Part shown: positions 9,833 through 39,964 of the stretch, piece by piece | How the letters are laid out: the number at the start of each line of letters is the position of its first letter | How positions within the stretch are numbered: the first letter of the stretch is position 1 | Source: Sinorhizobium glycinis | Lineage (GTDB): Bacteria; Pseudomonadota; Alphaproteobacteria; Rhizobiales; Rhizobiaceae | Direction of reading: 5' to 3' | Assembly: GCF_001651865.1 (NCBI RefSeq) | Contig: NZ_LPUX01000055.1 | Coordinates: 1-64,000, forward strand | DNA length: 64,000 nucleotides | Translations under genes and position numbers: made by a program | Notes under the pieces: generated by a model | What the model saw: the letters and a program-made list of their open reading frames with translations, nothing else | Database searches by the model: none | Told to the model about the DNA's origin: nothing

Positions 9833-9850
9833 GGTACCGACTTCTCTTGC

Positions 9851-9892
9851 TGCATGTTTCCTTAGATCGTAGCCGATTTAAGGACAGAAACA
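9851..9892. repeat. Dispersed palindromic repeat, module B
   Basis: TGCATGTTTCCTTAGATCGT then AGCCGATTTAAGGACAGAAACAT; the halves form an imperfect palindrome. It lies between two co-directional genes, six bases past the beta-propeller stop, so it would be transcribed as a hairpin inside the operon mRNA and could tune the downstream ATPase and permease. Confidence 0.6.
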
Positions 9893-9898
9893 TCTCCG

Positions 9899-10873: not shown

Positions 10874-10894
10874 CTGGCTCTCTCCCATTTCAGG

Positions 10895-12872: not shown

Positions 12873-13772
12873 ATGTATCTTGCCAACCTTCGGCGACTTG
12901 AAGCTGAAGCCATTCATGTCTTTCGAGAAGTAGTCGCGACGTTTTCTAATCCGGTTGTACTTTACTCGATCGGAAAGGACTCGTCTGTTCTATTGCATCT
13001 GGCGATGAAGGCGTTCTTCCCGGCAAAGCCGCCGTTTCCTTTCCTGCATGTGGACACAAGGTGGAAGTTCCGGGAGATGATCGCTTTTCGCGACCGGATG
13101 GCGCGGGAGCTCGGCTTCAATCTTCTCGTCCATATCAACCAGGATGGCGTCGAGCAGGGCATCGGTCCCTTCACGCATGGGTCCAACGTGCATACGCATG
13201 TCATGAAGACGATGGCTCTCAGGCAAGCCCTGGAGAAATACGGCTTCGACGCGGCGCTCGCGGGAGCGCGGCGGGATGAGGAAAAATCTCGGGCCAAGGA
13301 GCGCATGTTTTCGATCCGTAGCGCCCAGCACGGATGGGACCCGAAGCGCCAGCGTCCCGAGATGTGGAAGACCTATAATACGCGCGTCGGTGCGGGCGAG
13401 ACGATGCGGGTGTTTCCGCTCTCCAACTGGACCGAATTCGACATCTGGCAATACATCCTGCAGGAAAACATCCCGATCGTGCCGCTCTATTTTGCGGGGC
13501 GCCGGCCGGTCGTGAATCGCGACGGCATGCTGATCATGGTTGACGACGACCGCATGCCGCTCGAGCCGGGCGAAGAGGTGATGGAACGGATAGTTCGCTT
13601 CCGTACGCTCGGCTGTTATCCACTGACCGGCGCGATCGAATCCGAGGCTGCCACGGTCCTGGACATATTGCGGGAGATGCTGACGGTGCGCACCTCCGAA
13701 CGGCAGAGTCGGCTGATCGACATGGACGAGGCGGGCGCCATGGAGAAGAAGAAGCGCGAGGGGTACTTCTGA
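12873..13772 (+). CDS. cysD: Sulfate adenylyltransferase subunit 2 (small, ATP pyrophosphatase subunit)
   Basis: 299 residues, the normal CysD length. It carries the PP-loop [12 protein letters not shown] near residue 31, [18 protein letters not shown], and the C-terminal [23 protein letters not shown] tail of the family. With CysN it converts sulfate and ATP to adenosine 5'-phosphosulfate. The ATG follows AGAGGGG. Its stop overlaps the cysNC start (TGATG), so the subunits are translated together. No cysH, cysI or sulfate transporter gene is nearby, which points to PAPS for sulfation rather than cysteine synthesis. Rhizobial NodP is a paralogue; no nod genes are visible here. Confidence 0.95.
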
Positions 13773-15673
13773 TGTCGTATCTTCAATCGGTGCCGCCGCA
13801 CGACCTGGAAGCGCATCTGGCCGATCACGACAGCAAGTCGGTGCTCCGGTTCATCACCTGCGGCTCCGTCGACGACGGCAAGTCGACGCTGATCGGACGG
13901 TTGCTCTTCGACGCCAAGCTGATCTTCGAGGACCAGCTGATGAATCTTGGTCGCGTCGGTTCCCCGGGGGCCGCCAATGGCGAGGAGATCGACCTGGCTT
14001 TGCTGCTCGACGGGCTCGAGGCGGAGCGCGAGCAGGGCATCACCATCGACGTCGCCTACCGCTATTTCGCCACATCGAAGCGCAAATTCATCGTCGCCGA
14101 CACGCCTGGCCACGAGGAATATACGCGCAATATGGTGACCGGCGCGTCGACGGCCGACCTGGCCGTCATCCTCATCGACAGCCGCCAGGGCATTCTCCAG
14201 CAGACCCGGCGTCATTCCTACATCGTTTCGCTGCTCGGCATCCGCCACGTCGTGCTGGCGGTCAACAAGGTCGACCTCGTCGAATTTCGTCAATCCGTCT
14301 TCGACGAGATCGCCCGCGACTACGGGGCTTTTGCGAAGAAGCTCGGCTTTGCCAGCATCCAGACGATCCCCATCTCCGCGCGGTTCGGCGACAACGTGAT
14401 TTCGGCATCGCCGAACACGCCCTGGTACAAGGGGCCGGCGCTGCTTGAATACCTGGAGACGGTGCAACTCGACCCGCCCGAGGCGGAGCGGCCCTTCCGC
14501 TTCCCGGTTCAACTGGTCATGCGTCCCAATGCAGATTTCCGCGGCTATGCCGGGCAGATCGCTTCCGGCAGGATCTCGGTCGGCGATCCGGTCGTTGTCG
14601 CGAAATCCGGACAGCGATCGTCGGTCAAGGCAATCGTCACATATGACGGGAATTTGGCGACAGCGGCCGAAGGTGAGGCCGTGACACTCGTCCTTGCCGA
14701 TGAGGTCGACGCCTCGCGCGGCAACATGGTGGTGGCGCCGGCCTCGAGGCCCTTCGTGGCGGACCAGTTCCAGGCGCATGTCATCTGGTTCGACGCCAAT
14801 CCGATGCTTCCAGGGCGAAGCTATATCCTCCGAACGGAGACCGACAGCGTCAGCGCAACGGTCACGGCGCTCAAGCATCAGGTGAACATCAACAGCTTTG
14901 TCCGCGAGGCAGCGAAATCCTTGCAGATGAACGAAGTGGGCGTCTGCAACATCTCGACGCAGGCCCCGATCGCCTTCGACGCCTACAAGGAGAACCGGGC
15001 GACCGGCAATTTCATCTTCGTCGACCGGGTTACCAACGCAACGGTCGGCGCCGGCCTGATCGATTTCCCGCTCAGGCGAGCCGACAACGTGCATTGGCAG
15101 GCGACCGACGTGAACAAGGGCGCGCGTGCGGCAATGAAGAGCCAGCGCCCCGCCGTCCTGTGGTTCACCGGGCTTTCCGGCTCGGGCAAGTCGACGATCG
15201 CCAACGCGCTCGACCGGCTCCTGCATGCCCGCGGCAAACACACCTACATGCTCGACGGCGACAATGTGCGCCACGGGCTCAACCGGGACCTTGGCTTCAC
15301 CGAAGCCGATCGCGTCGAGAACATCCGCCGGGTCGCAGAGGTCGCCAAGCTGATGGCCGATGCCGGGCTGATCGTGCTGGTGTCCTTCATCTCGCCGTTC
15401 CGCGACGAACGGCGCATGGCGCGCGAGCTGATGGAGGAGGGCGAGTTCATCGAAATCTTCGTCGACACGCCGCTTGAGGAATGCGCGCGCCGTGATCCGA
15501 AGGGGCTCTACGAGAAGGCTCTCGCAGGCAAGATCGCCAATTTCACCGGCGTCTCCTCGCCCTACGAGGCGCCTGAGAACCCGGAACTGCATCTCAAGAC
15601 GATCGAGGACGATCCGATCGCCCTTGCGCTGAAGATCGAGGCGTTCCTCGATGGACAAATGGAGACGAAATGA
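13772..15673 (+). CDS. cysNC: Bifunctional sulfate adenylyltransferase subunit 1 / adenylylsulfate kinase
   Basis: 633 residues. The N-terminal GTPase CysN has G1 [15 protein letters not shown] near residue 29, G3 [12 protein letters not shown] and G4 NKVDLV, followed by elongation-factor-like beta domains to about 430. The C-terminal CysC kinase has [19 protein letters not shown] near 465 and [15 protein letters not shown]. The fusion, also seen in NodQ, makes PAPS from sulfate, ATP and GTP in one complex with CysD. It is coupled to cysD upstream and overlaps cysQ by four bases. PAPS is presumably used by the sulfotransferase at 26036. Confidence 0.95.
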
Positions 15674-16521
15674 CGCCGCTCTGCGAACTCTTCGAACGCA
15701 TCGCGCTCGAGGCCGGCGCGTCGATCCTTGCTGTCTACGACGCTGGACCGACCGTCTGCTACAAGGAGGATCGTTCGCCCGTGACCGAGGCGGATGAGCG
15801 GGCCGAAGCGATCATTCTCGGCAGGCTGGCGGCGGCGTTCCCGCATATTCCCGTCGTTGCCGAAGAGGCCGTCGCTTCCGGCTGTGTCCCTGATATCAGT
15901 TGCGGCACATTCTTCCTGGTCGATCCGCTCGACGGCACGAAGGAATTCATCAACCGGCGCGACGACTTCACCGTCAATATCGCGCTGATCGAAGGCAACG
16001 TCCCGGTTGCCGGCATCGTCTACGCGCCGGCGCTGCGCTGTGCCTACGTCGCCGACAAGGGGAGGGCGGAGAAGCTCGCGTTCGGCAGCGGCGCCCACGT
16101 GGGTCATCGCCAGGCGATCCGGGCGCGCGCCCGCGGCCCGGCGCTGACCGCCGTCGCAAGCCGTTCGCACAACAGCTCCGAGACCGAGGCATTTCTCGCC
16201 GTTCACGGCGTCACGGACTACACCTCCGTCGGTTCGTCGCTCAAGTTCTGCCTGCTCGCCGAAGGCCGGGCGGATGTCTATCCGCGTTTCGGCCGAACGA
16301 TGGAATGGGACACGGCGGCGGGCAATGCGGTGCTCAACGCCGCCGGCGGCTCGGTCGTGCGGCTGGACGGTTCGCGGCTCCTCTACGGCAAGATGAGGCA
16401 GGCGGACGACAGCGACTTCGCAAACCCGCATTTTGTCGCCTGGGCGGACATGTCTTCGGAGTCCGCCCTCTCGTCGTCGCTTGTTGCGGAGTCAGTTCCA
16501 GACATTCGCCCAAAGGCCTGA
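15670..16521 (+). CDS. cysQ: 3'(2'),5'-bisphosphate nucleotidase
   Basis: 283 residues of the inositol-monophosphatase superfamily, with the metal-binding motifs [10 protein letters not shown] near residue 84 and [15 protein letters not shown] near 216, plus EEAVASG upstream. CysQ removes 3'-phosphoadenosine 5'-phosphate, the product of sulfotransferases, and can limit PAPS. The start ATG overlaps the cysNC stop. Together cysD-cysNC-cysQ form a closed PAPS synthesis and clean-up unit, as expected for a sulfation locus. Confidence 0.92.
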
Positions 16522-16538
16522 TCGAGGGCACATCCAGC

Positions 16539-17279
16539 ATGGACCCGCAGGAGAGAAAGAGCACCAGCAAGCCCGTGTTCCACCGGTTTCGGGACCTTGG
16601 CCAGGCGGAAGTGAATGTGGACCTCCAGGTTCATACGACCTGGACCGACGGCCAGGCAACCGTGCTGCAAGTCCTGCAGACGGCTCGCGAACGCGGGCTC
16701 GGTGCGCTGGCTTTCACGGAACACGTTCGCGAGGACACCGCCTGGTTTGGCGACTTCAGGGAGGAAGTCCTTTCCGCCGCCCGTGATTTCGACGACCTTC
16801 AGGTCTTTGTCGGCTGTGAAACCAAGGCGATGGATGCCGATGGCAGGCTGGATGTGTCGCAACGGGTGCTCGATGCGTGTGACATCGTTCTCGGCGTCGT
16901 CCACCGGCTTCAGGATGGGCGGGGCGGCTACCTGGACTTCGGACAGCTTTCGTTCGAGCAGACCGCCGACATCGAATTTCAGCTTTCGATCGGCATGGTC
17001 AGGAATGCGCCCATCGATGTGCTGGGACATCCGGGCGGCATGAGCCTGAGGCGACACGGCCGTTTCCCGGAAGAGTATTTTCGCGCGATGATGATGGCGA
17101 CGCTCGAACGGCAGATCGCGATCGAGATTAACTCCTCGTACCTGGCCGACATGCCGGCATTTCTGGCCCTGTGCGAAGAAGTCAACCCGCTCGTTTCCGT
17201 CGGCTCCGACGCGCATCGGCTGGAACAATTGGGTCACTGCAGGGACCGCTTGCTGGAATTGGGGGTGGGGCGGTCATGA
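16539..17279 (+). CDS. PHP-domain metal-dependent phosphoesterase/hydrolase
   Basis: 246 residues from the ATG at 16539, 17 bases past cysQ; the longer open frame upstream is antifunctional overlap with cysQ. PHP motifs are visible: LQVHTTWTDG near residue 28 (Gln-x-His as in PolX-type PHP rather than His-x-His), TEHVRED, GCETKA, VHR, GHPGG and SVGSDAHRLEQLG at the end. PHP proteins hydrolyse phosphoesters or, in some cases, C-N bonds. The 3' end overlaps the ATP-grasp gene by four bases. The reaction in this locus is unknown; a modified sugar phosphate or aminoacyl substituent is a guess. Confidence 0.82.
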   Translation: MDPQERKSTSKPVFHRFRDLGQAEVNVDLQVHTTWTDGQATVLQVLQTARERGLGALAFTEHVREDTAWFGDFREEVLSAARDFDDLQVFVGCETKAMDADGRLDVSQRVLDACDIVLGVVHRLQDGRGGYLDFGQLSFEQTADIEFQLSIGMVRNAPIDVLGHPGGMSLRRHGRFPEEYFRAMMMATLERQIAIEINSSYLADMPAFLALCEEVNPLVSVGSDAHRLEQLGHCRDRLLELGVGRS

Positions 17280-18268
17280 AGGTCTTTGTCACGGGGGCAG
17301 GCGCCTTGCTCGGACAAGGCATTATCCGGGCCTTGCGGCGTTCCACCTTGGACGCGAGGATAATCGTCGCCGACCCGAGTCCGCTCTCCGCCGGTCTCTA
17401 TTGGGGAGACGCCGCCTACCTGTTGCCGATGGCGAAGGATCCCCATTATCTGGACAGGCTGGGCGAACTTCTCGGAGCGGAACGGCCGGACGTGTTGATC
17501 CCCGGAACCGACGTGGAACTCCCGATCCTCTCGGCAAATCGCGAGGCGATCGAAAAAGCCTACGGCACCAGGGTGATCGTCAGTTCGCCTCGTGTCGTGT
17601 CGATCGCCAACGACAAGTGGCTCACCTCGGAGTTCCTGCGCGAGCACGGCTTGGGCTTCGTTCCTTCATGTCTGCCGGGCGAGGAGGCAGCCCTGATCGA
17701 ACAATGCGGATTTCCGCTTGTCGTTAAGCCGAGGGTAGGCGCCAGATCGATTGGCTTCAGTGTCGTTGGCAACCGCGAGCAGCTGGATCGGGCGATTGCC
17801 GAGCAGCCCGGCATCGTCATACAGAAGTATGTCGGTTCGGAAACAAGCGAATTCACTGCGGGCACGGTGACCTTCAATGGGAAATGCCGTGCGACGATCG
17901 TCATGCGCAGGGATCTTCGCGACGGCAACACCTACCGCGCCTTCGCCGAGCCCTTTCCCGCCCTCAATAGAGCAATGGCGGAGGCCGCCGACGCCCTCGC
18001 TGCCGACGGTCCGGCGAACTTCCAGTTTCGCCTTGACGAAGGTGTTCCCCGGATTTTCGAGATCAACGCGCGGTTTTCGGGGACCACGGCGGTAAGAATC
18101 CACGCGGGGTTCAATGAGGTTGAAATGTGCATTCGGCATATCCTCTTCGGAGAGCCGGTCGTCCAACCGGACATCACGCCGGTCACGATATTGCGGCACT
18201 GGTCGGAGACCGTGGTGAAACCCGGCGACCTGGTTACAGTTTCGGCTCCCCTGGAAGAAGAAGTGTGA
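17276..18268 (+). CDS. ATP-grasp ligase (carbamoyl-phosphate-synthase-like)
   Basis: 330 residues. The N-terminal pre-ATP-grasp Rossmann part starts MKVFVTGAGALLGQGIIRAL; the ATP-grasp core has FPLVVKPRVGARSIGFSVV, and the metal-binding strand PRIFEINARFSGTTAVRIHAG lies near residue 262. Such enzymes join a carboxylate to an amine or thiol through an acyl phosphate. The ATG at 17276 overlaps the PHP stop. In a polysaccharide locus it could attach an amino acid or similar group to a sugar carboxylate, but no partner is identifiable. Confidence 0.85.
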   Translation: MKVFVTGAGALLGQGIIRALRRSTLDARIIVADPSPLSAGLYWGDAAYLLPMAKDPHYLDRLGELLGAERPDVLIPGTDVELPILSANREAIEKAYGTRVIVSSPRVVSIANDKWLTSEFLREHGLGFVPSCLPGEEAALIEQCGFPLVVKPRVGARSIGFSVVGNREQLDRAIAEQPGIVIQKYVGSETSEFTAGTVTFNGKCRATIVMRRDLRDGNTYRAFAEPFPALNRAMAEAADALAADGPANFQFRLDEGVPRIFEINARFSGTTAVRIHAGFNEVEMCIRHILFGEPVVQPDITPVTILRHWSETVVKPGDLVTVSAPLEEEV

Positions 18269-18283
18269 GGCGGAAGATCGGCC

Positions 18284-19228
18284 GTGACCTTCAGGGAACT
18301 GGTTGTAACCGGTGCGACGGGCTTTATAGGTACGAGACTGATCGAACAGGCGCTGGCGAGAGGCTACGCCGTGACGGCGCTTGCACGCCACCCGGATCGG
18401 ATCGCAGCGCGGAATGATGCTCGCTTGCGCATTGAGGAGTGGTCGATTGGCGCGCCGCTGCCGTCGTTAAGCCAAGCGGATGCCCTTCTTCATCTCGCGG
18501 CCTATATTCCCGCCGACCTCAGCGACCCCCGTCAGGCCGCCAGATGCTTCGAAATCAACACGAACGGCGCGCTAGACGTCGCGATCGACGCCGCCTCGCA
18601 AGGCGTGCGGCGGTTCATCTATTTTGGATCGGGGCAGGTGTATACGCCCGCCCCGGAGCCTGCCTCGGAAACAAGTCCCACCTTTCCCGTCAGTCGCGCA
18701 AGCTACTATCTGGCGAGCAAACTCTCCGCAGAGATTTGCCTGCTCGCCTTCGGAAAGGTGAAGGCGATGCCCGTGACGGTCTTTCGCCTCGCCTCGGTCT
18801 ACGGTCCAGGCATGCACGGCAACGGCATGGTGACGGCGTTCATCGGTGCGCTTGCGCGCGGGCATTCCGTGATTATTCGTGATGGGGGCGCCTATCGCGC
18901 GGATCTTGTCTATGTCGACGACGTGGCCTCCATGGCTCTCGGGACGGTCGCGGGCGAAAGCGAGGGCGTCTTCAACGCCGGAAGCGGGCACGCCTGCACC
19001 TCACTCGAGGCGGCCCATATCATTGCCGAGGTGATTGGAGCGGACCCCTCCCTGATCAAAGTGGAGGGTGAAGGCGGAGGCGCAGCGGCGGGGGGATTTG
19101 CGGCGCTGGATGTCGCCAAGGCCGTCGAACAACTGGCTTACACGCCGCGCGCGTTCCGCCAAGGCATCGAGGCATGGAAAGCAGAAACCGGGTTTGCGGA
19201 CGTCCTGAACGCGAGCGGGCAAGACTGA
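18284..19228 (+). CDS. NAD-dependent sugar epimerase/dehydratase (extended SDR)
   Basis: 314 residues, GTG start at 18284 preceded by GAGGCGGAAG. The nucleotide motif GATGFIGTRL lies near residue 11 and the catalytic region reads SASYYLASKLSAE (YxxxK) near 144. Probably converts a nucleotide sugar for the polysaccharide. It lies 15 bases past the ATP-grasp gene and is the last of the cysD operon; the next gene is convergent. Substrate unassigned. Confidence 0.88.
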   Translation: MTFRELVVTGATGFIGTRLIEQALARGYAVTALARHPDRIAARNDARLRIEEWSIGAPLPSLSQADALLHLAAYIPADLSDPRQAARCFEINTNGALDVAIDAASQGVRRFIYFGSGQVYTPAPEPASETSPTFPVSRASYYLASKLSAEICLLAFGKVKAMPVTVFRLASVYGPGMHGNGMVTAFIGALARGHSVIIRDGGAYRADLVYVDDVASMALGTVAGESEGVFNAGSGHACTSLEAAHIIAEVIGADPSLIKVEGEGGGAAAGGFAALDVAKAVEQLAYTPRAFRQGIEAWKAETGFADVLNASGQD

Positions 19229-19278
19229 TGCTTGCCGCGAAGTGCCCGGGGGCCAGCGCCTGCGCGTGTCGATCTCGC

Positions 19279-20511
19279 CTATTCAAGTTGCATGCGCTCC
19301 AGCAGCAGCCGGTTGACGGCGTGAACGTCGAACTTGCTCTTCGCTATCTCGCGCGACTTCTCGCCCATCCTCGCAACCAGCTCCGGATCTCGAGCCAGCG
19401 CGATCATCGCGTCCGCCAGACTGACCGCGTCACGCGCCTTGACAGCGAAGCCGTTGACGCCCGGCTGCACGGTGTCGCGGCAGCCGGGGAGGTCCGTGGT
19501 GATGATCGGCCGACCGGTCGCCAGAGCCTCCAGTATGCTGCGGGGAATGCCTTCGCGATAGTAGGAAGGCAGCACGAAGACGGAGCAGGCGGCGAGATAG
19601 GGCCGGACATCGTCGGTACTGCCGAGGTAGTCCAATATCCCCTCGCGAACCCAGCCGTCGATCTCCGCCCGGGAAACGGCGGTCGGGTTGCCGTCGAAGG
19701 GGCCGAGGAGCTGGAACCGGGCTTCGGGAGACGACCGACGGACGACCCGCGCCGCCTCGACATATTCCACGATGCCCTTGTCGCGCAGGAGCCGGGCGAC
19801 CATGAGGAAGACCGGTGCGCCTTGCGGCGGCCTCGAGAAGATGAAGTGGTCGGGATCGACTCCGGACCCCGGGACGATGGTGATCAGCGAGCTGTCCCGC
19901 AGCATCCGGTGGTTACGGATGTCCGCGACATCCGCGTCGTTATAGGCGAACACGACTTTGGCGCCGCGGAAGGCCATCCGATAGAGCCAGACGCAGAGAT
20001 GCCGTACGAGCCTGGACTTCACGGAGGCGCTTGCTTGCTCGGAGAACATGTGCCCGAGACCGGTCACGAGAAAGCAGCGCTCTCTGATCCCCAGCATGCG
20101 CGCCGCGATGCCGCCATAGATGATCGGCTTCATCGTATAGGGCAGAATCAGGTCAGGCCGCAGATGCCGGAAGCTCTCCCGCAGGGACCAGAGGGTTCTC
20201 AGGTCCTCGATCGGATTGAGACCCGTACGCGCCATCGGAACGCGGCGGAACTCGACGCCGATCTCCGCAAGCTGGTGCTCGACCTTCGCGTCCTGTTCCG
20301 GAGCAAGGGCGACGACGCGGTGCCCTGCCGCAACCAGCCTCTTCAGCAGGTCCAGCCGGAAAATCGTCAAGGAGGGGGTAAAACTCGCGACGACCGCGAT
20401 GACGCGCCGACTGCCGTGGCGGATTTGCGGTGCGGACGAGCTTTCGGCACGAGGCAAGCCCGGCGCCGCAGCCTCGGCTCCAGCCCGTAAAGTCTGACCT
20501 ACCGGTTCCAC
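19279..20511 (-). CDS. Glycosyltransferase family 4
   Basis: 410 residues from a GTG at 20511 with GGAGGGATCC upstream; the frame is open further but that part only overlaps the preceding gene. The N-terminal GT-B domain starts RRVIAVVASFTPSLTIFRLDLLKRL; the donor-binding C-domain has VARLLRDKGIVEYVEAA and REGIPRSILEALATGRPIITTDLPGCRD, the E-x7-E region of GT4. It overlaps the upstream glycosyltransferase gene by 13 bases. Adds one sugar of the repeat unit at the cytoplasmic face; donor and acceptor unknown. Confidence 0.88.
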   Translation of the reverse strand: MEPVGQTLRAGAEAAAPGLPRAESSSAPQIRHGSRRVIAVVASFTPSLTIFRLDLLKRLVAAGHRVVALAPEQDAKVEHQLAEIGVEFRRVPMARTGLNPIEDLRTLWSLRESFRHLRPDLILPYTMKPIIYGGIAARMLGIRERCFLVTGLGHMFSEQASASVKSRLVRHLCVWLYRMAFRGAKVVFAYNDADVADIRNHRMLRDSSLITIVPGSGVDPDHFIFSRPPQGAPVFLMVARLLRDKGIVEYVEAARVVRRSSPEARFQLLGPFDGNPTAVSRAEIDGWVREGILDYLGSTDDVRPYLAACSVFVLPSYYREGIPRSILEALATGRPIITTDLPGCRDTVQPGVNGFAVKARDAVSLADAMIALARDPELVARMGEKSREIAKSKFDVHAVNRLLLERMQLE

Positions 20512-21665
20512 GGATCCCTCCTGTACGATGCGCTTCGGTGAAGCGCCATCTCGTAAAGCTTCAGATGTCGGGCGACATAGGTCGCGAGCGAGAAGTTCTC
20601 GATGACACGTCGGCGCGCCGCCATGCCCAGTTGCCGCCGGTCGGCCGGGCAAAGCGAGAGCAGCCTGGCAACGACTTCCGCCTGCGCCACCGCATTGTTG
20701 GGCTCAGAGATCAGCTCCAGATCGCCGACCAGCCAGGCACAGTCGCCAACATCGGTTGCCGCCGCCGGGACGCCACAGGCCATCGCTTCCGCGACGCAGA
20801 GCGGAAAAGCCTCGCCCCATGAGGATGAAAGCATGAAGACGTCCAGGCCCGGCAGCAACGCGTTGATGTCGGAGCGGGCGCCCGACGTCGTCAGCCGGCC
20901 GTCCATGCCGAGGTCGCGGGCAGTCTGGCGGGCAGCACCCGATTCGTGGCCGTCGCCGATGATCAGCCCATGCACGTCGTATCCACGGTCCCGAAGAACG
21001 GCGAGCGCCTTCACGAAAGCGGCGTGATCCTTCATAGGATGCGCGCGCGCCACATTGCCTATGATCGATCGCGTCGGCGGGATGTTGAATAGCTGGTGCA
21101 GCCTGTCCTTGGCTCCGTTCAGCGGCTGGAACTCTGAACAATCGATGCCGTTCGGAATGACATGCCTTTTCAAGGCGTCGAAGCCGAGGGCTTCGTGCTG
21201 GTCGGCCGCCACTCTCGAGCAATAGGAGATGGCGGCCGTCCAGGGCGACAAGCGTGCCCCAAGCGTGATCAGCCGCCGCGTCATGCGCTTCTCGGCGTCG
21301 ATATTTGCAACGGAGTGATGGATGCTCCAGATCACCGGTTGCCGCCGGTGCATCAGCGCACCCACGGAGGCGGCAATGTTTCCGTGGTACATCCAGCCAT
21401 GGAGGAGCGCCGGCTCCGTTGTTCGGATCGCCTGCCTCAACCGCCACAGCGAGTTCAGCCTTGGCCTCGCCTGAGGCATTCCGATCGTCTGTATGTCGAC
21501 TTCCGAAAGCGCCATGCTTTCGGCGACGGGACCCGGCGTCATCAGCGAGAGCACCGAAGGGCGGTACCGGTTCCCGGACAATCCCCTGGCGAAGCGGGCG
21601 AGCATGTATTCCGCTCCGCCTACATTCAACCCGGTGATGCAATTGAGGACGCGGATGTCACTCAC
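20499..21665 (-). CDS. Glycosyltransferase family 4
   Basis: 388 residues, GTG start at 21665. The GT-B opening is VLNCITGLNVGGAEYMLARFARGL, with GNVARAHPMKDHAAFVKALAVL and SWGEAFPLCVAEAMACGVPAAATDVGD in the C-domain. It is similar in style to colanic-acid/EPS GT4 enzymes acting on a lipid-linked oligosaccharide. The ribosome site is weak. It follows the dehydratase gene (21771) on the same strand and overlaps the next glycosyltransferase. Confidence 0.88.
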   Translation of the reverse strand: MSDIRVLNCITGLNVGGAEYMLARFARGLSGNRYRPSVLSLMTPGPVAESMALSEVDIQTIGMPQARPRLNSLWRLRQAIRTTEPALLHGWMYHGNIAASVGALMHRRQPVIWSIHHSVANIDAEKRMTRRLITLGARLSPWTAAISYCSRVAADQHEALGFDALKRHVIPNGIDCSEFQPLNGAKDRLHQLFNIPPTRSIIGNVARAHPMKDHAAFVKALAVLRDRGYDVHGLIIGDGHESGAARQTARDLGMDGRLTTSGARSDINALLPGLDVFMLSSSWGEAFPLCVAEAMACGVPAAATDVGDCAWLVGDLELISEPNNAVAQAEVVARLLSLCPADRRQLGMAARRRVIENFSLATYVARHLKLYEMALHRSASYRRDPWNR

Positions 21666-21743
21666 AGTGAGCCTATCTCTTTAGAGCCGCGGCGGGTCGT
21701 GCGGCTCCCAGGTGGCGAGCCGCACGGACCTGTCCTCCCGCTA

Positions 21744-21774
21744 GAGCCTCCCATTCAACCAGGAAAGGTTCTAA
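21744..21774. repeat. Dispersed repeat, module C (same sequence as the arms of the 12.2 kb element)
   Basis: CCATTCAACCAGGAAAGG followed by TTCTAA matches the right arm at 12553-12586. Read on the minus strand, its TTAG supplies the TAG stop of the dehydratase gene at 21771, so the repeat forms the 3' boundary of that gene. Confidence 0.6.
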
Positions 21775-23957
21775 TTTCCCGGCAGGTTGAGTTCGCCGCG
21801 CTTGCGGCCCTGAACCCCGGAACGGCGTCGCGGACCCTCGACGCGCCGCCGCGGCGGCACGGCCCGCTTGCCCGACGATGGTCGCTTTGCTCCCTCCGCC
21901 CCGTGTTGGTAATGCGGGAGCAGTTCATGCATCACGCTCACCACCGCCCGTTCATTGCCGCGCTCCGCATGGCGCTGCAGGCGCATGAACGCGTCCTTCA
22001 ACTTCGGCAGCGGGATCGGATCCGGAACCGCGCCGAGCACACCTGGAACCGGCAGGCTTATGCGCTTGTCGGTCTCGTCGAAAAGCTCCTCGAAGAGCTT
22101 CTCGCCCGGCCTGCAGCCGATAATCTTGATCTCGATCTCCTCGTCCGGCGTGAAACCCGCCAGCCGGATCATGCGCCTGGCGATGTCGATGATCTTGATC
22201 GGCTCGCCCATGTCGAGGACGAAGATCTCTCCCTGCCCGAGCTGCTGCTCGAAACCGTAGGCGGAGGCCTGCAGCGTCAGTTCCACGGCCTCGCGGATGG
22301 TCATGAAGAAGCGTGTCATGTTGGCGTCGGTCACCGTGAGCGGGCCGCCCCTTGCGAGCTGCCGTTCAAACAGCGGTATCAAGGAACCGCTCGATCCCAG
22401 CACGTTCCCAAAACGAACGGTCATGAACCGCGGCGCCTGGCCTGTCTCGATGCCATCCAGGTCCAGCGCCTGGCAGTAGAGTTCCGCCAGGCGTTTCGAC
22501 GCGCCCATGACGCTCGTCGAGTTCACCACCTTGTCGGTGGAGACCTGGACCATAGCAAGCGTGCCGCATTTCTTGGCAGCATTGGCGACGTTCATGGTGC
22601 CGATGACATTGGTGAGCACGCCCTCGCACGGGTTCATCTGAACCATGGGCACATGCTTCAGGGCGGCGGCGTGAAAGACGAGCTCCGGTCTATGGCGCTC
22701 GAAAATCTCCTCCACCCTCTGGCAGCGGCGAACGCTGCAGAGGTAGCAAGACCGCGGGACGTCCGGGAAGTTCTCGTTCAACTTCATGTCGATGGAGTAG
22801 AGGTTGTATTCCGTATTGTCGATCAGAACGATCTCCGCGGGTCCGCAGGCAGCGACCTGAGCGGTCAACTCGCTGCCGATCGATCCGCCCGCGCCGGTAA
22901 CGAGGATGCGCCTGCCGCAAATGAGGCGAGCAATCGCTGCCGTGTCGAGTGCTGCCTGCGGCCGCTCGAGAAGATCGGTCAGCTCGATCGACCGCAATTC
23001 ATAGGGGTTGTCGTTCTTGGCGCGTTTGAGTTCGGTGAGCTGTGACAATCGCGAGACCGCGATCCCGAGCCGCTCAGCGGAGTGCACAAGCTCTTCCGAG
23101 GCCTTTTCGCCGAAGGCGGCTGGGGCCTCCGTGAACACCACGTGACGCGGCTGCTTGTTGACCAGCTGCAGTTCTGCCACGACCCGCTCGAAATCCGCGA
23201 TGCTGCCGGCAATCGGCACACCGCGCAGGCTCATGCCGACCTGGTCGCCATGTTTGTCCAGGCAGGCGACCGGTATGTGGGTCGCATTTGGATCCCGGGC
23301 GAGCGCGCGGAGATAGAGATCTGCGGCGTCGCCGGCGCCAACAAGCAGCAGTGGAACGTAATGTTGCTCATTGGCCTTCTTGAAGACCGGCCGCGCGAGC
23401 GGGATTTCTTCGGCGCGGAAGCTCAGTCGCGATGCCGCGAGGAACGCGATCAGAAGGAGAGACTGCATAGGAACGACCGTTCTCGGAATCTCGCTCAGCC
23501 GGGTCGAGAAAAAGAGCAACGAGACGAGCAGCAAGGACGTCAGCAGCACGGCGCGCAGGATGATGAACAGGTCGGAGATCGACCCATACCTCCAGTTGCG
23601 GCTGTAGAGCCCGGAGAACGGAAAAACGAAAGCGCAAATGGCAAGATATTGAGCCCCGGACCAAAACAGGACGGACGCAGTTTCCGGTCTCGCCTTCAGC
23701 TCTGTTATGCCATAGCGCAAGAGCAGCGCCACCGCGAGGGCAATGCCGGCGGAGCCGAGATCGGCAAGGTAGAGCAAGGAGCATTTTTGGATGCTGCGTG
23801 CAGCACCTCGTATGCGCCTTAGCCCGATGTCCACGGCCGCTTCGCCCACGGCCCATAGTCTTCCTTTAGTCGTCCGGTTTGCTGCCCCTTGTCCCAAGCC
23901 TGGCCACATTAGAAAATTGTCACGAATTGCCTTCGCGGCGGCGTGTAAACGCTGCAT
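21771..23957 (-). CDS. Membrane-bound nucleotide-sugar 4,6-dehydratase, FlaA1/CapD/WbpM type
   Basis: 728 residues. Four N-terminal membrane segments (for example LADLGSAGIALAVALLLRYG) and a CoA/NAD-binding-like middle domain (VPLLLVGAGDAADLYLRAL) precede the catalytic domain, with ILVTGAGGSIGSELTAQVA near residue 350 and STDKVVNSTSVMGASKRLAE, where Met replaces the usual Tyr as in WbpM. These enzymes dehydrate UDP-GlcNAc on the way to 6-deoxy aminosugars such as QuiNAc, FucNAc or bacillosamine. The start has GGAAGGG upstream. The amino-sugar product fits the aminotransferase and formyltransferase in the locus. The C-terminal Arg/Lys-rich tail (RRRVEGPRRRSGVQGRKR) looks non-family, and the stop codon lies in a repeat. 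Confidence 0.9.
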   Translation of the reverse strand: MQRLHAAAKAIRDNFLMWPGLGQGAANRTTKGRLWAVGEAAVDIGLRRIRGAARSIQKCSLLYLADLGSAGIALAVALLLRYGITELKARPETASVLFWSGAQYLAICAFVFPFSGLYSRNWRYGSISDLFIILRAVLLTSLLLVSLLFFSTRLSEIPRTVVPMQSLLLIAFLAASRLSFRAEEIPLARPVFKKANEQHYVPLLLVGAGDAADLYLRALARDPNATHIPVACLDKHGDQVGMSLRGVPIAGSIADFERVVAELQLVNKQPRHVVFTEAPAAFGEKASEELVHSAERLGIAVSRLSQLTELKRAKNDNPYELRSIELTDLLERPQAALDTAAIARLICGRRILVTGAGGSIGSELTAQVAACGPAEIVLIDNTEYNLYSIDMKLNENFPDVPRSCYLCSVRRCQRVEEIFERHRPELVFHAAALKHVPMVQMNPCEGVLTNVIGTMNVANAAKKCGTLAMVQVSTDKVVNSTSVMGASKRLAELYCQALDLDGIETGQAPRFMTVRFGNVLGSSGSLIPLFERQLARGGPLTVTDANMTRFFMTIREAVELTLQASAYGFEQQLGQGEIFVLDMGEPIKIIDIARRMIRLAGFTPDEEIEIKIIGCRPGEKLFEELFDETDKRISLPVPGVLGAVPDPIPLPKLKDAFMRLQRHAERGNERAVVSVMHELLPHYQHGAEGAKRPSSGKRAVPPRRRVEGPRRRSGVQGRKRGELNLPGN

Positions 23958-24350
23958 GACGGCCCTTCCCTAACATCAAAAGCCTTGCCGTCCTGCCGAA
24001 TGACAACGCCATCACCGCCAAGTCCTGCTGGCGGTTCAAGAGTTGGGTATCTTTAGTGTTGCCTCGTCGACCGGCCTGAAGGCTAGAGTAACTTAAAACA
24101 ACAAAGACGAGTGCTCGCGACTGGATAGATCGCGGCACCAAAATTTTCCGGCATATTCGAAGTTAGTAATAAAAACACGTTACTACGGGGTTGTAAATAG
24201 TCGTTCCTAGTAACGCTGCAAGAATGATTATATATTAAAAATATGTATTTATCAGAGAACCTCAGGTTGCGATCTCGCCGCGGTGCGTGAGGCCGAGAAA
24301 GCAATTCTCGCCCCCGGTGAGCCGTCCGCGGCCTGCCGAGGGCAACGCAG
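23958..24350. promoter_or_regulatory. AT-rich intergenic region upstream of the dehydratase/glycosyltransferase operon
   Basis: No credible gene. From about 24140 to 24260 it is much more AT-rich than the surroundings. An 8-bp inverted repeat CGTTACTA (24178-24185) / TAGTAACG (24208-24215) with an additional TTAGTAA at 24163 could be a regulator site for the minus-strand genes starting at 23957. Confidence 0.35.
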
Positions 24351-25253
24351 TCAGTGGAGTTTGCTGTGAATCGGCGGCCGCTTGCCAAAGGGCGTTTCCC
24401 AGGCAACGACCTCGATGCATTCGCCGTCTCCGCACCGTACGACGAAGCCTGTCTCGGTATGCGCCTGGACCTGACCGTCGAGCCCGATGAACCGGCCGGA
24501 ATTCGCGACCGCGACCGCGCTGTCGATGCGGATCTTCTCGCCGGTCCGCCATGTGAAGGCCCCGGGATAGGGATCGCCGACCGCCCGGATCAGGCGCAAC
24601 ACGGCGGCTGCCGGTCGGTGCCAGTCGATCAGGCCGTCCTCCGGACTCCGCTTCGCGCAATAGCTTGCCTGGTCATGATCCTGTTGCGTCCGAGGCGCGC
24701 TGTCCGATTCCACGAGCGCGGCGGCCTCTACGACCATTTCGGCAAGATTTGCCGTTTGCTTGGCATATAGGCTCCTCGCGGTTTCGTCGGCCTCCACTGG
24801 GAACAGTCGCTGGAGCAGAACAGGCCCGGAATCGATCCCGTCGTCCAGCCAGAACAAGGTCGAGCCGGTTTCCTCCTCGCCCTGGAGGATTGTCCATGGG
24901 ATGACGCCACGACCGCGAAAATGCGGCAAGGCTGCCGGATGGAACCCGACGGTGCCCTTGCGCGCTATGTCTCGGAATGGCCGCCGACAGATTTGCGACC
25001 AGCCGATGACAAACGTGAGGTCCGGTCGGACCAATGCCATGGCTTCGAGCGTCGCGGCAGCATTGACGTCCGTCGCGTAGCAGACCGCGCTCCCGGTTGC
25101 CCGCGCCAGGTCGGCTATATCCGCAAAATCGGAATGACGTTCCGCCGCTTCGGGCGGGAGTGTTACGACCAAGACCGGGATGCGCTTGGCCTTTATGAGC
25201 GCCTCCAGAGCGATCCTGGAGCTTTCGACGGCGCCGACGAAAACGATACGCAT
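24351..25253 (-). CDS. Methionyl-tRNA formyltransferase-like sugar N-formyltransferase
   Basis: 300 residues. The N-terminal formyl-transfer domain has GFHPAALPHFRGRGVIPW at 103-120 and GSTLFWLDDGIDSGPVLLQRL at 130-150; the C-terminal domain has SPEDGLIDWHRPA, common in ArnA/Fmt-type proteins. The canonical catalytic Asn of the N-x-H motif is Gly103 here, while His105 and Asp141 are kept. Too short for ArnA and not next to fmt/def housekeeping genes, so it probably transfers formyl from N10-formyl-tetrahydrofolate to a sugar amine in the EPS. GGTGGGACC precedes the ATG. Confidence 0.82.
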   Translation of the reverse strand: MRIVFVGAVESSRIALEALIKAKRIPVLVVTLPPEAAERHSDFADIADLARATGSAVCYATDVNAAATLEAMALVRPDLTFVIGWSQICRRPFRDIARKGTVGFHPAALPHFRGRGVIPWTILQGEEETGSTLFWLDDGIDSGPVLLQRLFPVEADETARSLYAKQTANLAEMVVEAAALVESDSAPRTQQDHDQASYCAKRSPEDGLIDWHRPAAAVLRLIRAVGDPYPGAFTWRTGEKIRIDSAVAVANSGRFIGLDGQVQAHTETGFVVRCGDGECIEVVAWETPFGKRPPIHSKLH

Positions 25254-26035
25254 GGTCCCACCAAGAAATCCAAATGTATGAAATCAGCGGGTGCTCTACT
25301 CACCTGTCGGACAATGAGTAATGCGATCCAGAGTGAGCGTCGGCTCATCGAACACAATAGCGGCCACGGCGTCCAGGGTAAAGCGGCGCACCTGACGCAG
25401 ACTTGTAGATTCGGTCCTGCAAGTCGGTCAAAAATCTCGATCGCCGAATATGCAATGTTGGCGAAAAGGCGAGAATGAAGTACGTTCACGCATATCGCAG
25501 TAATGGGGGCCTGTTTAGGCCGGCGATAGAGCATTCACCGTTGAAAGCAATTTGATTTTGTTGTTGGGGAGATGCCCGGGCAGTCATGCAGGGCAAAATG
25601 GAGATGACCGGTCTTAGGCGCGGTCTGCCGATCAGCTTGCCGATGGCTGTGACGTCTCATTTCCACTACAGCGCCGTGCGTCTTTCAGACGCCACAGTAC
25701 GCGACAGTAGCGTTGGCGGATGCTTTTTCGCCCTCATCCCTGTGCTTGTCACAGGGATCCAGCAGCGCCGCGTTCGCGGTGCGAAAGAGACTTTTCAGCC
25801 CAAGGACTTGGGCTGGCTGGATTCCTGTGACGAGCACAGGAATGAGGACGGAGGAGAGGCCCTGCCGTACGCAACCGACGAAGCCCAGTCGGCTGCTGCC
25901 GTGTACTGTGATCAGACGCGCATAGGTCGCTGTAGCACTTTGAATTGCTGCATGTTCTTGTCCTTAATCGGCTACGCTTCAGGAAACATGCAGTAGGGTT
26001 CTGACCCTGGAAGCATCAGCCAATGGAAGGCTCAC
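25254..26035. repeat. Intergenic stretch built largely of dispersed palindromic repeats
   Basis: 782 bases without a real gene. It holds module A at about 25666-25710, a long hairpin (25732-25847, own entry) and modules A+B at about 25911-25995 (GCTGTAGCACTTTGAATTGC then CCTTAATCGG...GAAACATGCAG). A 136-codon frame at 25586-25996 consists of these repeats and is rejected. Promoters for the formyltransferase (leftward) and sulfotransferase (rightward) must lie here but cannot be assigned. Confidence 0.6.
25732..25847. repeat. Long inverted repeat with 32-bp arms
   Basis: The left arm 25732-25763 (CCTCATCCCTGTGCTTGTCA...) and right arm 25816-25847 (...GTGACGAGCACAGGAATGAGG) pair with only a few mismatches around a 52-base loop. 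It looks like the abundant rhizobial intergenic palindrome and could form a large RNA hairpin or cruciform. Confidence 0.7.
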
Positions 26036-26962
26036 ATGATGCCCTCGCAACCGGTTCGCATTGCTTATATTGCAGGTTACGGACGCAGCGGGACGACCGT
26101 CCTCGACATTGCATTGGGGCAACATGCAGGTGTGCTGGGGGCCGGCGAGATAACGGCGCTTACGAGACATGTCTGGCGCCATAACGAATATTGTGCATGC
26201 GGCAATCCCATTCGCGACTGTGCCTTCTGGAGTAAGGTTATCCAAGAATGGTCGGAAGGCGGGGATTCGAACCTTGTGTCGGAGTATGGCGCTCTTCAAG
26301 AAAAGTTTGAAGGATTGCCCGTGTTCCTAAGCGTACTTTCCGGAATGGGTCTCGGAAAGCTATTTCCAGCATATGCGCTTCACACAAAACGTCTATTCGA
26401 TGCAATGGCGTCGTGCTCCGGAAGGCAAATCATCGTCGATTCTTCAAAGCTGCCGGGAAGAGCCCTGGCGCTTGCGCAGATTCCGGGCGTCGACATGCGC
26501 ATCATCCATGTGGTGCGCGATGGGCGCGGAGTTGCCTGGTCGTTGCTGAAAGCCTATGACCGCGACGTAAAATCCGGATTGCAGAAGGAAATCAAGCCAA
26601 AGCCGGTATTCAGGACGGCGTTGCGATGGAACATTGTCAATCTTGCCGTCGAATATCTCTCGCGGAAATTGGGTCCGCAAAAGGTGATGCGGGTAAGATA
26701 TGAGGATTTCGCGTCCAACCCGGCGGCGGCCATGCAGCAGATCGGGGCGTTTCTCGAACTCGACTTAAGTCAAGTCGGTTCATCTCTGCAAAGCGGCGCG
26801 TCGATCGAGCCGGGGCACCAGGTTGCAGGGAGTCGATTGCGCATGAGACCATCGATCGCACTCACCAAAGACGAGACGTGGCGGACAGGGATGCCGGCCG
26901 CTCAGCAGCTTTCCTTTCAGCGCCTGGGCGGGTGGATGCTCAGGCGCTATGGCTATCTTTGA
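26036..26962 (+). CDS. PAPS-dependent sulfotransferase
   Basis: 308 residues. The 5'-phosphosulfate loop is AGYGRSGTTVLDIALGQH near residue 13-30 and the 3'-phosphate loop HVVRDGRGVAWSLLKA near 155-170, as in carbohydrate and NodH-type sulfotransferases. Two ATGs are adjacent (26036 and 26039), preceded by GGAAGG. It transfers sulfate from PAPS to a hydroxyl, most likely on a sugar of the polymer made by this locus; the cysDNCQ operon 13 kb upstream would feed it. ACACGNPIRDCAFW holds a Cys pair that may bind metal or form a disulfide. Confidence 0.88.
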   Translation: MMPSQPVRIAYIAGYGRSGTTVLDIALGQHAGVLGAGEITALTRHVWRHNEYCACGNPIRDCAFWSKVIQEWSEGGDSNLVSEYGALQEKFEGLPVFLSVLSGMGLGKLFPAYALHTKRLFDAMASCSGRQIIVDSSKLPGRALALAQIPGVDMRIIHVVRDGRGVAWSLLKAYDRDVKSGLQKEIKPKPVFRTALRWNIVNLAVEYLSRKLGPQKVMRVRYEDFASNPAAAMQQIGAFLELDLSQVGSSLQSGASIEPGHQVAGSRLRMRPSIALTKDETWRTGMPAAQQLSFQRLGGWMLRRYGYL

Positions 26963-27135
26963 CCGGTTGGCAGCATGCCGGTTGCCTCGTGAGCGAATTC
27001 GCGGGGGCATCGAACGGCATGCTGGCGCTGCTGCAATGTTTTGTCGCTCGCAAACGGTGCAACGTTCGCGAGCCTGTCATCTTATGAATACGCTCGGGGA
27101 AGGACGAATTCGGCTTCAACTTGGTGGCGCGAGGC

Positions 27136-28605
27136 ATGACAAATATGATCCAGTCACGTGAAGTAGGCGCATTTCGTTTCACGGTCGCACGCTCGCTGAT
27201 CCTGGCAGGGCTACTCTGCGGATCACTGATCGGCCAACCGCCGGGGGCCATTGCCCAGTCTGCAACCGCGCCCGACGAGCCTCTCTCACCCAAGCTTCAA
27301 GACGGTCGACAGCGCGCCTTCCCCACGGCCGAAGGCTTCGGCGCCGCTTCTCAGGGAGGGCGGGGCGGAAAGGTGATCTATGTCCTCAACACGGACGAGT
27401 CCGGCCCCGGTTCCTTGCGGGCATGCATCGAAGCGTCCGGGCCGCGCGTCTGTATCTTCCGCACGGGCGGAACCATTGTTCTTCGCGAGAAATCGCTGGT
27501 TATTCGCAATCCGTTCCTGACCATCGCCGGGGAGACGGCGCCGGGCGGCGGAATCGCTATCCGGAACGGCAAGACGCAAATCCGTCCTTCAATTGAAATC
27601 TGGACCAATGATGTCGTCATAAGACACATTCGTCTTCGCCCTGGACCGCATGCAGTCAAGGCTTGTTGTTCCGGGGCTCTCGGATTGTACTCCGAAGCGG
27701 CGAAAAATATTATGCTGGATCATATCTCGGCCAGTTGGGGGTCCGACGAAACAATCGATTCTGAGGATGCGAGTCACTTCACCTGGCAGTGGGGCATTAC
27801 GAGCGAGCCGCTCCTGCACGGCGGGCCGGGGAAAAGGAACCGCGCGCGCAACATGCTGTTCACCAAGGGTGGCAATATCTCTGTGCACCACTCCCTCTTT
27901 GCTTTTGGCAGGTTCAGAAATCCTCAAATCAAGATGAAGCATCCCGGCGCAATAGCGGATGTCGTGAACAATGTCTTTTACTCGCCTCAATGGGATTATG
28001 TCGTCAGTTTCGGCGATGAATGGACGCGTATCCAGGCCAATGTTGTCGGCAACTACAAGATCAAGGGAGAGAAGCTGCACGACGATCACATGGTCCATCT
28101 TTTCGAGGAAAGCGGGCTTGGGCACCAGATTTATGTGAAGGACAACTACGACGAACCCTACCGTACTGAGGCGGGCCAAGATGATGGCCTGATCATAGCC
28201 GGGGAACAGAGGCACTTTGTTTCCGCGAAGCCATTTGACGCGCCCCCCATCCGCACCTCCCAACCGATGCGCGCCTATGAAGACGTCCTCGCGGGTGCCG
28301 GCGCAACGAAGCCTGAGCGCGACGCCGTCGATAGGCGCATGATCAAAAAAATCGAGGATCGCGGCGGGAAGCTGCTCAAGACGGATCCGCAGGACGTCGG
28401 CGGGTGGCCGGAGCTTGCCGGCGGGATGCCGTACAAGGACGGCGACAAAGACGGCATTTCAGATGACTGGGAAGCCAGGAACGGCATAGACCCGACGAAC
28501 GCTGACGATGGCCAACAGGACATGGATGGCGATGGATGGACAAACCTCGAGGAGTTTCTCCATTTGATGGCTGGAGATGCCGAGATCGCCTCAGGTCAGG
28601 AATGA
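27136..28605 (+). CDS. Secreted pectate-lyase-like beta-helix protein with C-terminal calcium-binding repeats
   Basis: 489 residues from the ATG at 27136; the ATG at 27145 has better ribosome-site spacing and a TTG at 27121 is possible. A signal peptide (SLILAGLLCGSLIGQPPGAIAQS) is followed by a right-handed beta-helix like PL1/PL9-type lyases (AFPTAEGFGAASQGGRGGKV, FRTGGTIVLREKSLVIRNPF, ISASWGSDETIDSED). The C-terminus has thrombospondin-3/dockerin-like DGDKDGISDDWE and DMDGDGWTNLEEF. Likely cleaves or remodels a uronate-containing polymer outside the cytoplasm; a catalytic set was not verified. Confidence 0.82.
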   Translation: MTNMIQSREVGAFRFTVARSLILAGLLCGSLIGQPPGAIAQSATAPDEPLSPKLQDGRQRAFPTAEGFGAASQGGRGGKVIYVLNTDESGPGSLRACIEASGPRVCIFRTGGTIVLREKSLVIRNPFLTIAGETAPGGGIAIRNGKTQIRPSIEIWTNDVVIRHIRLRPGPHAVKACCSGALGLYSEAAKNIMLDHISASWGSDETIDSEDASHFTWQWGITSEPLLHGGPGKRNRARNMLFTKGGNISVHHSLFAFGRFRNPQIKMKHPGAIADVVNNVFYSPQWDYVVSFGDEWTRIQANVVGNYKIKGEKLHDDHMVHLFEESGLGHQIYVKDNYDEPYRTEAGQDDGLIIAGEQRHFVSAKPFDAPPIRTSQPMRAYEDVLAGAGATKPERDAVDRRMIKKIEDRGGKLLKTDPQDVGGWPELAGGMPYKDGDKDGISDDWEARNGIDPTNADDGQQDMDGDGWTNLEEFLHLMAGDAEIASGQE

Positions 28606-28773
28606 GTCTTTCGATTGCCGATGACGGTCGTGATGCTCATTTCTCAAGCCCCCTGGTTCCTTGCCTTAGCGAGCCGGTCAGGACTGCAGCGTTTGCTGGA
28701 GCGAGGTCCTCGCTCTTTTTCGTCGCGCCGATGATCAGAAAGTCGGTGTCCCGTATTCCAACTTCGGCCCCTT

Positions 28774-31704: not shown

Positions 31705-32145
31705 AGGAACCTTCCTACGGATATCAAGGAAACACGGGAATGGACCTCAGCCCTCGATCGCCGCCCCTGCTTTCCCGCCCCCTGAGCATCGCGCGGCTTT
31801 CTCGCCTGTCACCATGATTTGAAAAAAGTATAGGCGGCGGAAAGTCCCGGAAATTGTTTCCAAGCCTGCAGCCGGCGGTCGAATTTGCCCGCCGGCTTCT
31901 CCGCAGAGGAAACGCTTGATCATGTCAGTATAAGCATTTGCCTGCAATGCCGCTGCCTGCGGGACGCGCAAAGCTTTTCTGCAACACTTTGAAGTGGCGG
32001 CGATTTCTTTCCTGAACCGGATCCGATCGCAGCGCAGGGAGCGCAGAAACAGTTTATTCCTTTGACGGGGCAGCATCCCGAAGAATATAGTCGCCGAGTA
32101 TTTTTATAGAGCTTTCCTTATTGATGCTTTTTGGAGTGCTGTGCG
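31705..32145. other. Intergenic region between wzx and the exoF-like gene
   Basis: 441 bases in which the genes diverge. A 109-codon minus-strand frame (31747-32076) lacks a signal, ribosome site or family features and is not accepted. The part from about 32085 is AT-rich and probably carries the promoter of the exoF/exoY-like genes. No clear operator was found. Confidence 0.45.
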
Positions 32146-34157: not shown

Positions 34158-34172
34158 TCCCACCTAGTGGGA
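34158..34172. terminator. Short palindrome TCCCAC-CTA-GTGGGA after the exoY-like gene
   Basis: Perfect 6-bp arms with a 3-base loop starting seven bases past the exoY-like stop. No T-run follows, so it is a weak or Rho-dependent end, or a processing hairpin. Confidence 0.3.
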
Positions 34173-34310
34173 CGTGGCTCGCGACCCCGAAGACATTCAG
34201 GAAGCGGGATTTCGCCTGGGCTGGCGACGCGGCCCGGGAATTTTGATCTGTCTGGCAGCAAGTCTGCTCATTGCGCCGAAACGGCGGGGGAATTCTTCTC
34301 AGGAGGTCTC

Positions 34311-39877: not shown

Positions 39878-39964
39878 CCGAGGTGAGGCGAATTGGGTCG
39901 CCAAACCGTGAAGCGTGATCGGTTCTGCCGGGAAGGGCTGGAGAAACGTCGATCGGGAGGAATC

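Follow-up and report, generated by a model that had tools for sequence, protein, structure and literature searches.

What becomes of the activated sulfate that is made next to polysaccharide genes in the root-nodule bacterium Sinorhizobium glycinis is the question raised by a 64,000-nucleotide stretch of its draft genome (6.04 Mb, 68 contigs), namely positions 1-64000 of contig C55 (NZ_LPUX01000055.1), hereafter the window. In this region, where the contig resembles the S. meliloti replicon pSymB, cysD and cysNC, the genes for the synthesis of 3'-phosphoadenosine-5'-phosphosulfate (PAPS), and a sulfotransferase gene occur in one polysaccharide gene cluster. The locus likely builds a sulfated surface or secreted polysaccharide of the Wzx/Wzy type, since the sole adenosine-5'-phosphosulfate (APS) kinase of the genome lies here, the housekeeping reductase is of the APS type and the Nod factor sulfotransferases NodH and NoeE are absent; gene content, linkage and purifying selection, all read from sequence and comparison, point the same way. 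A sulfated polymer has been proposed before for the corresponding S. meliloti locus (PMC5498481). What the comparisons appear to add is the pairing of the sulfotransferase with a lyase-fold protein, the partition of PAPS units according to the neighbouring sulfotransferase, and the probable loss of two sulfotransferases in S. glycinis.

The PAPS genes open a run of six (cysD, cysNC, cysQ and those for a PHP-domain protein, an ATP-grasp protein and a sugar epimerase; 12873-19228) that lie head to tail on the plus strand, no overlap or gap between neighbours exceeding 17 bases. As the original prediction had stated, the first three overlap by a few bases, 1 between cysD and cysNC and 4 between cysNC and cysQ, and their products pass the NCBIfam cut-offs (Table 1). 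The APS kinase family PF01583 has a single match genome-wide, the C-terminal domain of CysNC from the window. CysQ was considered as a unique copy and rejected, a second CysQ with the same score, over the cut-off, being encoded on contig C47.

The predicted GYGRSGTT-type sulfotransferase at 26036 is likewise borne out: the protein (308 residues) carries this motif and exceeds the curated cut-off of PF13469. Its closest named relative is that of S. shofinae CCBAU 251167 (89% identity; ratio of nonsynonymous to synonymous substitution rates, dN/dS, 0.11), and other Sinorhizobium orthologs are 74-81% identical. The motifs GYGRSG and RDGRGVAWS, which we take to be the 5'-phosphosulfate loop and the 3'-phosphate motif, are invariant across 21 orthologs. 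In a set of 32 relatives RDGRGVAWS and the residues S18, G19 and T21 do not vary and G14, G16 and R17 hardly do, the constancy of RDGRGVAWS being by construction because RDGRGVAW was one of the two search patterns. The AlphaFold2 model (mean predicted local distance difference test score, pLDDT, 92.3) has a sulfotransferase fold, and its best Foldseek matches are tyrosylprotein sulfotransferases bound to 3'-phosphoadenosine-5'-phosphate (PAP), with human TPST2 reached at E 1e-8, a template modelling (TM) score of about 0.56 and a root mean square deviation of 8.2. No signal peptide was seen when the sequence was read by eye. A promoter and terminator scan of 25000-29000 returned 1 and 3 sites, no more than in shuffled sequences.

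Genes of the Wzx, Wzy, ExoF, ExoY and ExoP kinds do follow the sulfotransferase, as predicted, and extend to 44321, all five lying beyond 26962, where the original prediction had ended the locus. Flippase, polymerase, co-polymerase, outer-membrane exporter and priming transferase are thus all present, and the gene set is complete for a Wzx/Wzy polymer; Wzx, ExoF, ExoY and Wzy pass their Pfam cut-offs, and the ExoP-like protein passes that of PF02706 and stays below that of TIGR01005 (172 bits vs 412). S. shofinae shares the whole window version of the cluster at 84-95% identity, and dN/dS against this species is 0.10-0.22 in 23 genes (22 of the cluster and a neighbouring mechanosensitive-channel gene). 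The cluster genes are under purifying selection and represent more than a chance arrangement. The S. shofinae frame aligned to 19279-20652 contains a stop, as does the one aligned to 34994-36376, perhaps because the starts of the window frames were set too far upstream. We infer a real and probably working cluster for a sulfated polysaccharide, in which CysDNC would make PAPS, CysQ would clear PAP, and the sulfotransferase might attach sulfate to the repeat unit while this is lipid-linked and still cytoplasmic, ahead of its flipping by Wzx; polymerisation by Wzy and the ExoP-like protein would follow, ExoF would export the chain and the lyase-fold protein might trim it outside the cytoplasm. 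If this is true, a small set of genes is named through which an unseen sulfated polymer could be found by deletion.

Close relatives of the sulfotransferase (74-89%) occur in 20 of 32 other Sinorhizobium genomes and in none of 87 genomes of other genera, where two (G101 and G106) gave weak matches. Among the matches listed, 17 of the 21 genomes that have the sulfotransferase gene, S. glycinis included, carry an APS kinase no more than 45 kb away from it, these and the following counts being taken over related and hence not independent genomes; the exceptions are G003 (284 kb), G011 (171 kb, with a weaker APS kinase) and G024 and G030 (on other contigs). The gene order recurs as well (tblastn hits under 40% of query length dropped; the stretches of G003, G024, G026 and G030 span only part of the cluster). 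The co-occurrence that the original prediction had proposed to look for across genomes was therefore found, and its description of the arrangement as uncommon does not hold in the genus; cases from Vibrio and Cobetia, discussed below, are published as well. NodH is present in 12 of the 21, and in 11 of these another full-strength APS kinase (about 225 bits or more) lies within 7 kb of it (0.3-6.3 kb; among the matches listed); the contigs of the twelfth, G018, show no second one, with one full match and a contig-edge fragment. All nine genomes without NodH, one of which (G013) has NoeE, contain one full-strength APS kinase each, situated within 45 kb of the sulfotransferase gene in eight (again among the matches listed; matches of 112-117 bits in G011, G012 and G023 and short fragments were left out). 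Extra PAPS units thus seem to follow NodH and the window-type unit the polysaccharide sulfotransferase, which is meant as a pattern and not as a statistic.

The nearest described system is the nodP2-smb21248 cluster of S. meliloti, with three sulfotransferases, for which a sulfated polysaccharide was proposed (Zou et al., 2017; PMC5498481). According to that paper, seven of the genes of this cluster, nodP2 and nodQ2 included, are induced by Clr-cAMP, and its polymer is counted among the candidate signals by which secondary infection of roots might be controlled; in open-licence literature no report of the polymer itself was found. The pSymB cluster has in common with the window the PAPS genes, sugar enzymes, sulfotransferase, lyase-fold gene, Wzx, ExoF, ExoY, deacetylase and aminotransferase, at 66-89% identity and largely in the same order (SMb locus tags used here were assigned via gene order). 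It differs in that Wzy and ExoP are placed elsewhere and the GMC oxidoreductase has no match; S. meliloti also has a nodPQ with nodH on pSymA, whereas the S. glycinis genome lacks NodH and a second APS kinase. PAPS genes and a sulfotransferase are combined in one polysaccharide cluster, as here, in Cobetia marina KMM 1449 and Vibrio sp. KMM 8419, the structures of whose sulfated capsule polymers are given (PMC11766843, PMC11641403); the combination is called a hallmark in the text available for the latter (PMC11641403). Export there is by an ABC transporter (kps), and not by Wzx/Wzy with ExoP and ExoF, as encoded in the window. The synechan (xss) cluster of Synechocystis is a Wzx/Wzy cluster with two sulfotransferases that makes a sulfated exopolysaccharide (EPS), and it differs from the window in that the available sections list no PAPS genes for it and PAPS is unmentioned in the main text (PMC8205485).

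If not to a polysaccharide, the PAPS could go elsewhere. CysD and CysN are common to the assimilation pathway, and the unit might be a spare set for cysteine; this is very unlikely. As the original prediction had it, there is no cysH in the vicinity: the only PF01507 match on contig C55 is cysD itself (three in the genome; cysI was not searched for), and cysH is found on contig C53 with a second cysD and a cysN devoid of APS kinase. The C53 CysH scores as APS-type (TIGR02055, 276.5 bits, cut-off 235.3) and falls short of TIGR02057, the model for PAPS reductases (137.6 bits vs a cut-off of 254.2), so that PAPS should not be needed for cysteine and an APS kinase would be superfluous. Sulfation of Nod factors, after which such genes are named nodPQ, is even harder to credit. 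The genome does have nodA, but NodH and NoeE gave no match in it at E 1e-15, and PF13469, which detects both as controls, matches only the window sulfotransferase and a second one, ST2. The Nod factors of four soybean strains are described as unsulfated, just one of these strains being without a symbiotic-plasmid nodPQ, and it is proposed there that nodPQ stays silent (PMC6275314); S. saheli and S. fredii are said to have one nodPQ and no nodH (PMC4053727, in part). Use of PAPS for a polysaccharide would explain both sets of observations otherwise and, if true, would provide a job for nodPQ-type genes in nodH-less Sinorhizobium such as the latter two species. As to the nod genes, the 11.4-kb contig C58 (L115) contains a nodA frame identical over 229 amino acids to that of S. 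fredii CCBAU 25509.

Other sulfotransferases are more serious competitors. The genome search with three Pfam families (PF13469, PF00685 and PF09037) returned, besides the cluster enzyme, ST2 (C55:257764-258354; L010:12693-13658), 230 kb away on the same contig and next to a 382-residue frame without Pfam match (85% to S. americanum CCGM7), and a Stf0-type protein on contig C65, whose gene adjoins one for a family 2 glycosyltransferase and which shares 75% identity with an S. meliloti Stf0 protein. The unit might then mainly supply sulfation of lipopolysaccharide (LPS) or K-antigen by the Stf0-type enzyme or ST2, with the cluster sulfotransferase secondary, and sulfated LPS and K-antigen polysaccharide of S. 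meliloti are cited in PMC5498481 (available sections). We consider this unlikely in view of the proximity of cysNC to the cluster sulfotransferase across the genus and of the position of the Stf0-type gene on another contig in S. glycinis; moreover, ST2 is 87% identical to a sulfotransferase inside the equivalent cluster of L131 and for this reason may belong to the same polymer or be a displaced cluster gene. A non-polymer target of the cluster enzyme, for instance a protein tyrosine or a lipid, would agree with the Foldseek matches; a fold does not tell the substrate, however, and the steady linkage with Wzx/Wzy genes and the lyase-fold protein makes such a target quite improbable. The PAPS unit would be shared, serving the cluster polymer first and feeding at least two other sulfotransferases. 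Of the original prediction, a polymer sulfated from CysDNC-made PAPS stands as a reading, and the word dedicated is too strong because one unit must feed at least three sulfotransferases.

Several observations weigh against a sulfated polymer made by this locus, beginning with the likeness of the sulfotransferase to tyrosylprotein sulfotransferases. Its gene and cysNC are not one operon, given the 10.4 kb with minus-strand genes between them. Beyond close relatives, a scan with two exact peptide patterns, which yields a sample, found 36 sulfotransferase loci, 13 of them from Sinorhizobium/Ensifer or L131 (73% identical); of the 23 distant ones, 22 showed nothing related to cysD or cysN (up to 10 kb examined, several loci ending early at contig ends). 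The exception is L154, a contig of a flavobacterial (Pricia) metagenome-assembled genome, where a sulfotransferase relative (33%) adjoins cysN, cysD, cysC and cysQ-like genes. As relatives of Wzx, Wzy, ExoP, ExoF or ExoY lie within 10 kb of the sulfotransferase in 16 of the 23, the enzyme would belong with polymer genes widely and be joined by PAPS genes mainly in Sinorhizobium. PMC5498481 lists SMb21243 as the Clr-induced sulfotransferase, whereas the window enzyme corresponds to another one, and the window retains only a stub of the SMb21243 type; the published Clr-box consensus was matched nowhere in the window, both strands included. Wzy (46%), ExoP (26%) and two glycosyltransferases (29 and 44%) diverge from those of S. 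meliloti, for which reason the polymers may differ. In the literature, the nodPQ of S. meliloti is said to serve the Nod factor exclusively (PMC4053727, in part), and the available sections of PMC6275314 treat the EPS of four sinorhizobia from soybean without mention of sulfate; that EPS is not tied to this cluster.

The sulfotransferase has a steady partner. The gene at 27121-28605, or a relative of at least 74% identity, lies directly 3' of it on the same strand in 20 of the 21 genomes (G012 has a 37% relative about 4 kb away), and no close relative without the sulfotransferase occurs among 120 genomes. Sequence matches of its product are PDB 9buj (E 1e-21) and VexL (6fi2, E 1e-7), the periplasmic depolymerase of the Vi capsule; the model (pLDDT 82) is a beta-helix that Foldseek relates to the pectate lyase PfPL1 (E 5e-15), with 17 and 22% identity to VexL and PfPL1, respectively, over the fold; both of these proteins are matched in sequence as well as in structure. 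An apparent signal peptide was seen by eye. The protein remains under every curated family cut-off (NCBIfam PelZ, 131 bits vs 840; no Pfam match at E 0.001). Residues R266, N267 and P268 are present in 25 of 25 sequences, and R266 may correspond to the conserved arginine of the RxP motif of pectate lyases. Among the 23 distant loci a lyase-fold gene comes directly after the sulfotransferase in eight, within 6 kb in two and about 7 kb away on the opposite strand in one (L150). The pairing offers a handle on the polymer, as a lyase of such fold would suggest uronic acid in it. A broader reading is doubtful as a whole: the two proteins would form a "sulfate and cut" module that adds sulfate to an acidic polymer within the cell and cleaves it on the outside, setting free sulfated oligosaccharides which host plants might perceive, with regulation by cAMP in S. 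meliloti; since the pair adjoins Wzx/Wzy genes in Sphingobium and Erythrobacter, sulfated polymers that come with their own lyase would be common among Alphaproteobacteria; and the name "nodPQ" would be mistaken in nodH-less sinorhizobia, where these genes would supply PAPS for a polysaccharide. No publication on a sulfotransferase with a pectate lyase in Wzy loci was found in the open-licence literature, which is no proof of absence.

The complement of sulfotransferases is reduced in S. glycinis. The cluster encodes three in S. shofinae and S. meliloti and at least two in 17 of 20 relatives (stretches compared), whereas the window has one and 5' stubs of two others, whose E-values come from a search of four short intervals; the first stub (28712-28771), weak when taken alone, also rests on its position. 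Relative to S. shofinae, the window has lost some 875 bp at 28607-28684 and another 746 bp or so at 38105-38136, which would represent two separate deletions, each taking most of one sulfotransferase gene that S. shofinae retains, and the polymer is predicted to be less sulfated than that of S. shofinae. A 1.7-kb piece of S. shofinae DNA is also absent between 19235 and 19275, at the place where S. meliloti has a gene for an RTX calcium-binding protein.

Table 1. Predicted genes and gene remnants of the polysaccharide locus in the window
Feature	Position	Strand	Evidence
cysD (nodP2-like), ATP sulfurylase small subunit	12873..13772	+	TIGR02039 522.7 bits, cut-off 396.6; 89% to pSymB
cysNC (nodQ2-like), ATP sulfurylase large subunit fused to APS kinase	13772..15673	+	PRK05506 1041 bits, cut-off 715; PF01583 238.8 bits
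cysQ, PAP phosphatase	15670..16521	+	TIGR01331 287.4 bits, cut-off 228.8
PHP-domain protein	16539..17279	+	PF02811 39.8 bits (scanned from 16563); ATG at 16539
ATP-grasp protein	17276..18268	+	PF15632, PF02655
NAD-dependent sugar epimerase/dehydratase	18284..19228	+	PF01370 132 bits
Family 4 glycosyltransferase	19279..20652	-	PF13692/PF00534; start uncertain, frame overlaps next gene
Family 4 glycosyltransferase	20499..21665	-	PF00534 83 bits; 29% to pSymB gene at same place
CapD/WbpM-like nucleotide-sugar dehydratase	21771..23957	-	PF02719 359 bits
Formyltransferase (possible sugar N-formylation)	24351..25253	-	PF00551, PF02911
Sulfotransferase, counterpart of S. meliloti pSymB sulfotransferase at 803184 (SMb21237)	26036..26962	+	PF13469 54.7 bits, cut-off 27
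Predicted secreted beta-helix protein, pectate-lyase fold, sulfotransferase partner	27121..28605	+	start perhaps ATG 27136 or 27145
5' stub of second sulfotransferase gene (SMb21243 type)	28712..28771	-	tblastn 20 aa, E 2e-5
Family 4 glycosyltransferase	28774..29997	-	PF00534 93 bits; 44% to pSymB relative
Wzx flippase	30352..31704	-	PF01943 56 bits
ExoF-like outer-membrane export protein	32131..33396	+	PF02563, PF10531
ExoY-like priming sugar-phosphate transferase	33462..34151	+	PF02397 162 bits
PIG-L type deacetylase	34167..34997	+	PF02585 90 bits
DegT sugar aminotransferase	34994..36376	+	PF01041 314 bits
GMC oxidoreductase	36300..37904	-	PF05199 74 bits; no match in pSymB cluster
5' stub (40 codons) of third sulfotransferase gene (SMb21249 type)	38146..38265	-	tblastn 72.5% over 40 aa, E 5e-15
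Family 4 glycosyltransferase	38627..39877	+	PF00534 148 bits
Wzy polymerase	39893..41263	+	PF04932 44 bits; 46% to pSymB relative
ExoP-like co-polymerase with kinase-like domain	41913..44321	+	PF02706 40.8 bits; 26% to pSymB relative

Among the features listed, CapD and WbpM are the names that we presume to fit the product of 21771-23957, and the frame 20704-21642 (minus strand) was dropped as a gene in favour of the glycosyltransferase at 20499-21665 on the same strand. Phage records had no match to 12800-37700. To the left of cysD, the minus strand at 1833-12163 encodes a PQQ-dependent dehydrogenase-like protein, binding proteins of the NMT1 and Peripla_BP_6 types, a YncE-like propeller and, as judged by eye, ABC transporter components. 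To the right of the cluster (50784-54943) are genes for a UDP-glucose/GDP-mannose dehydrogenase (minus strand), an adenylate/guanylate cyclase-like protein and a second polysaccharide lyase (PF14099, 120 bits), all kept on pSymB (88.5, 94.5 and 77% identity, respectively).

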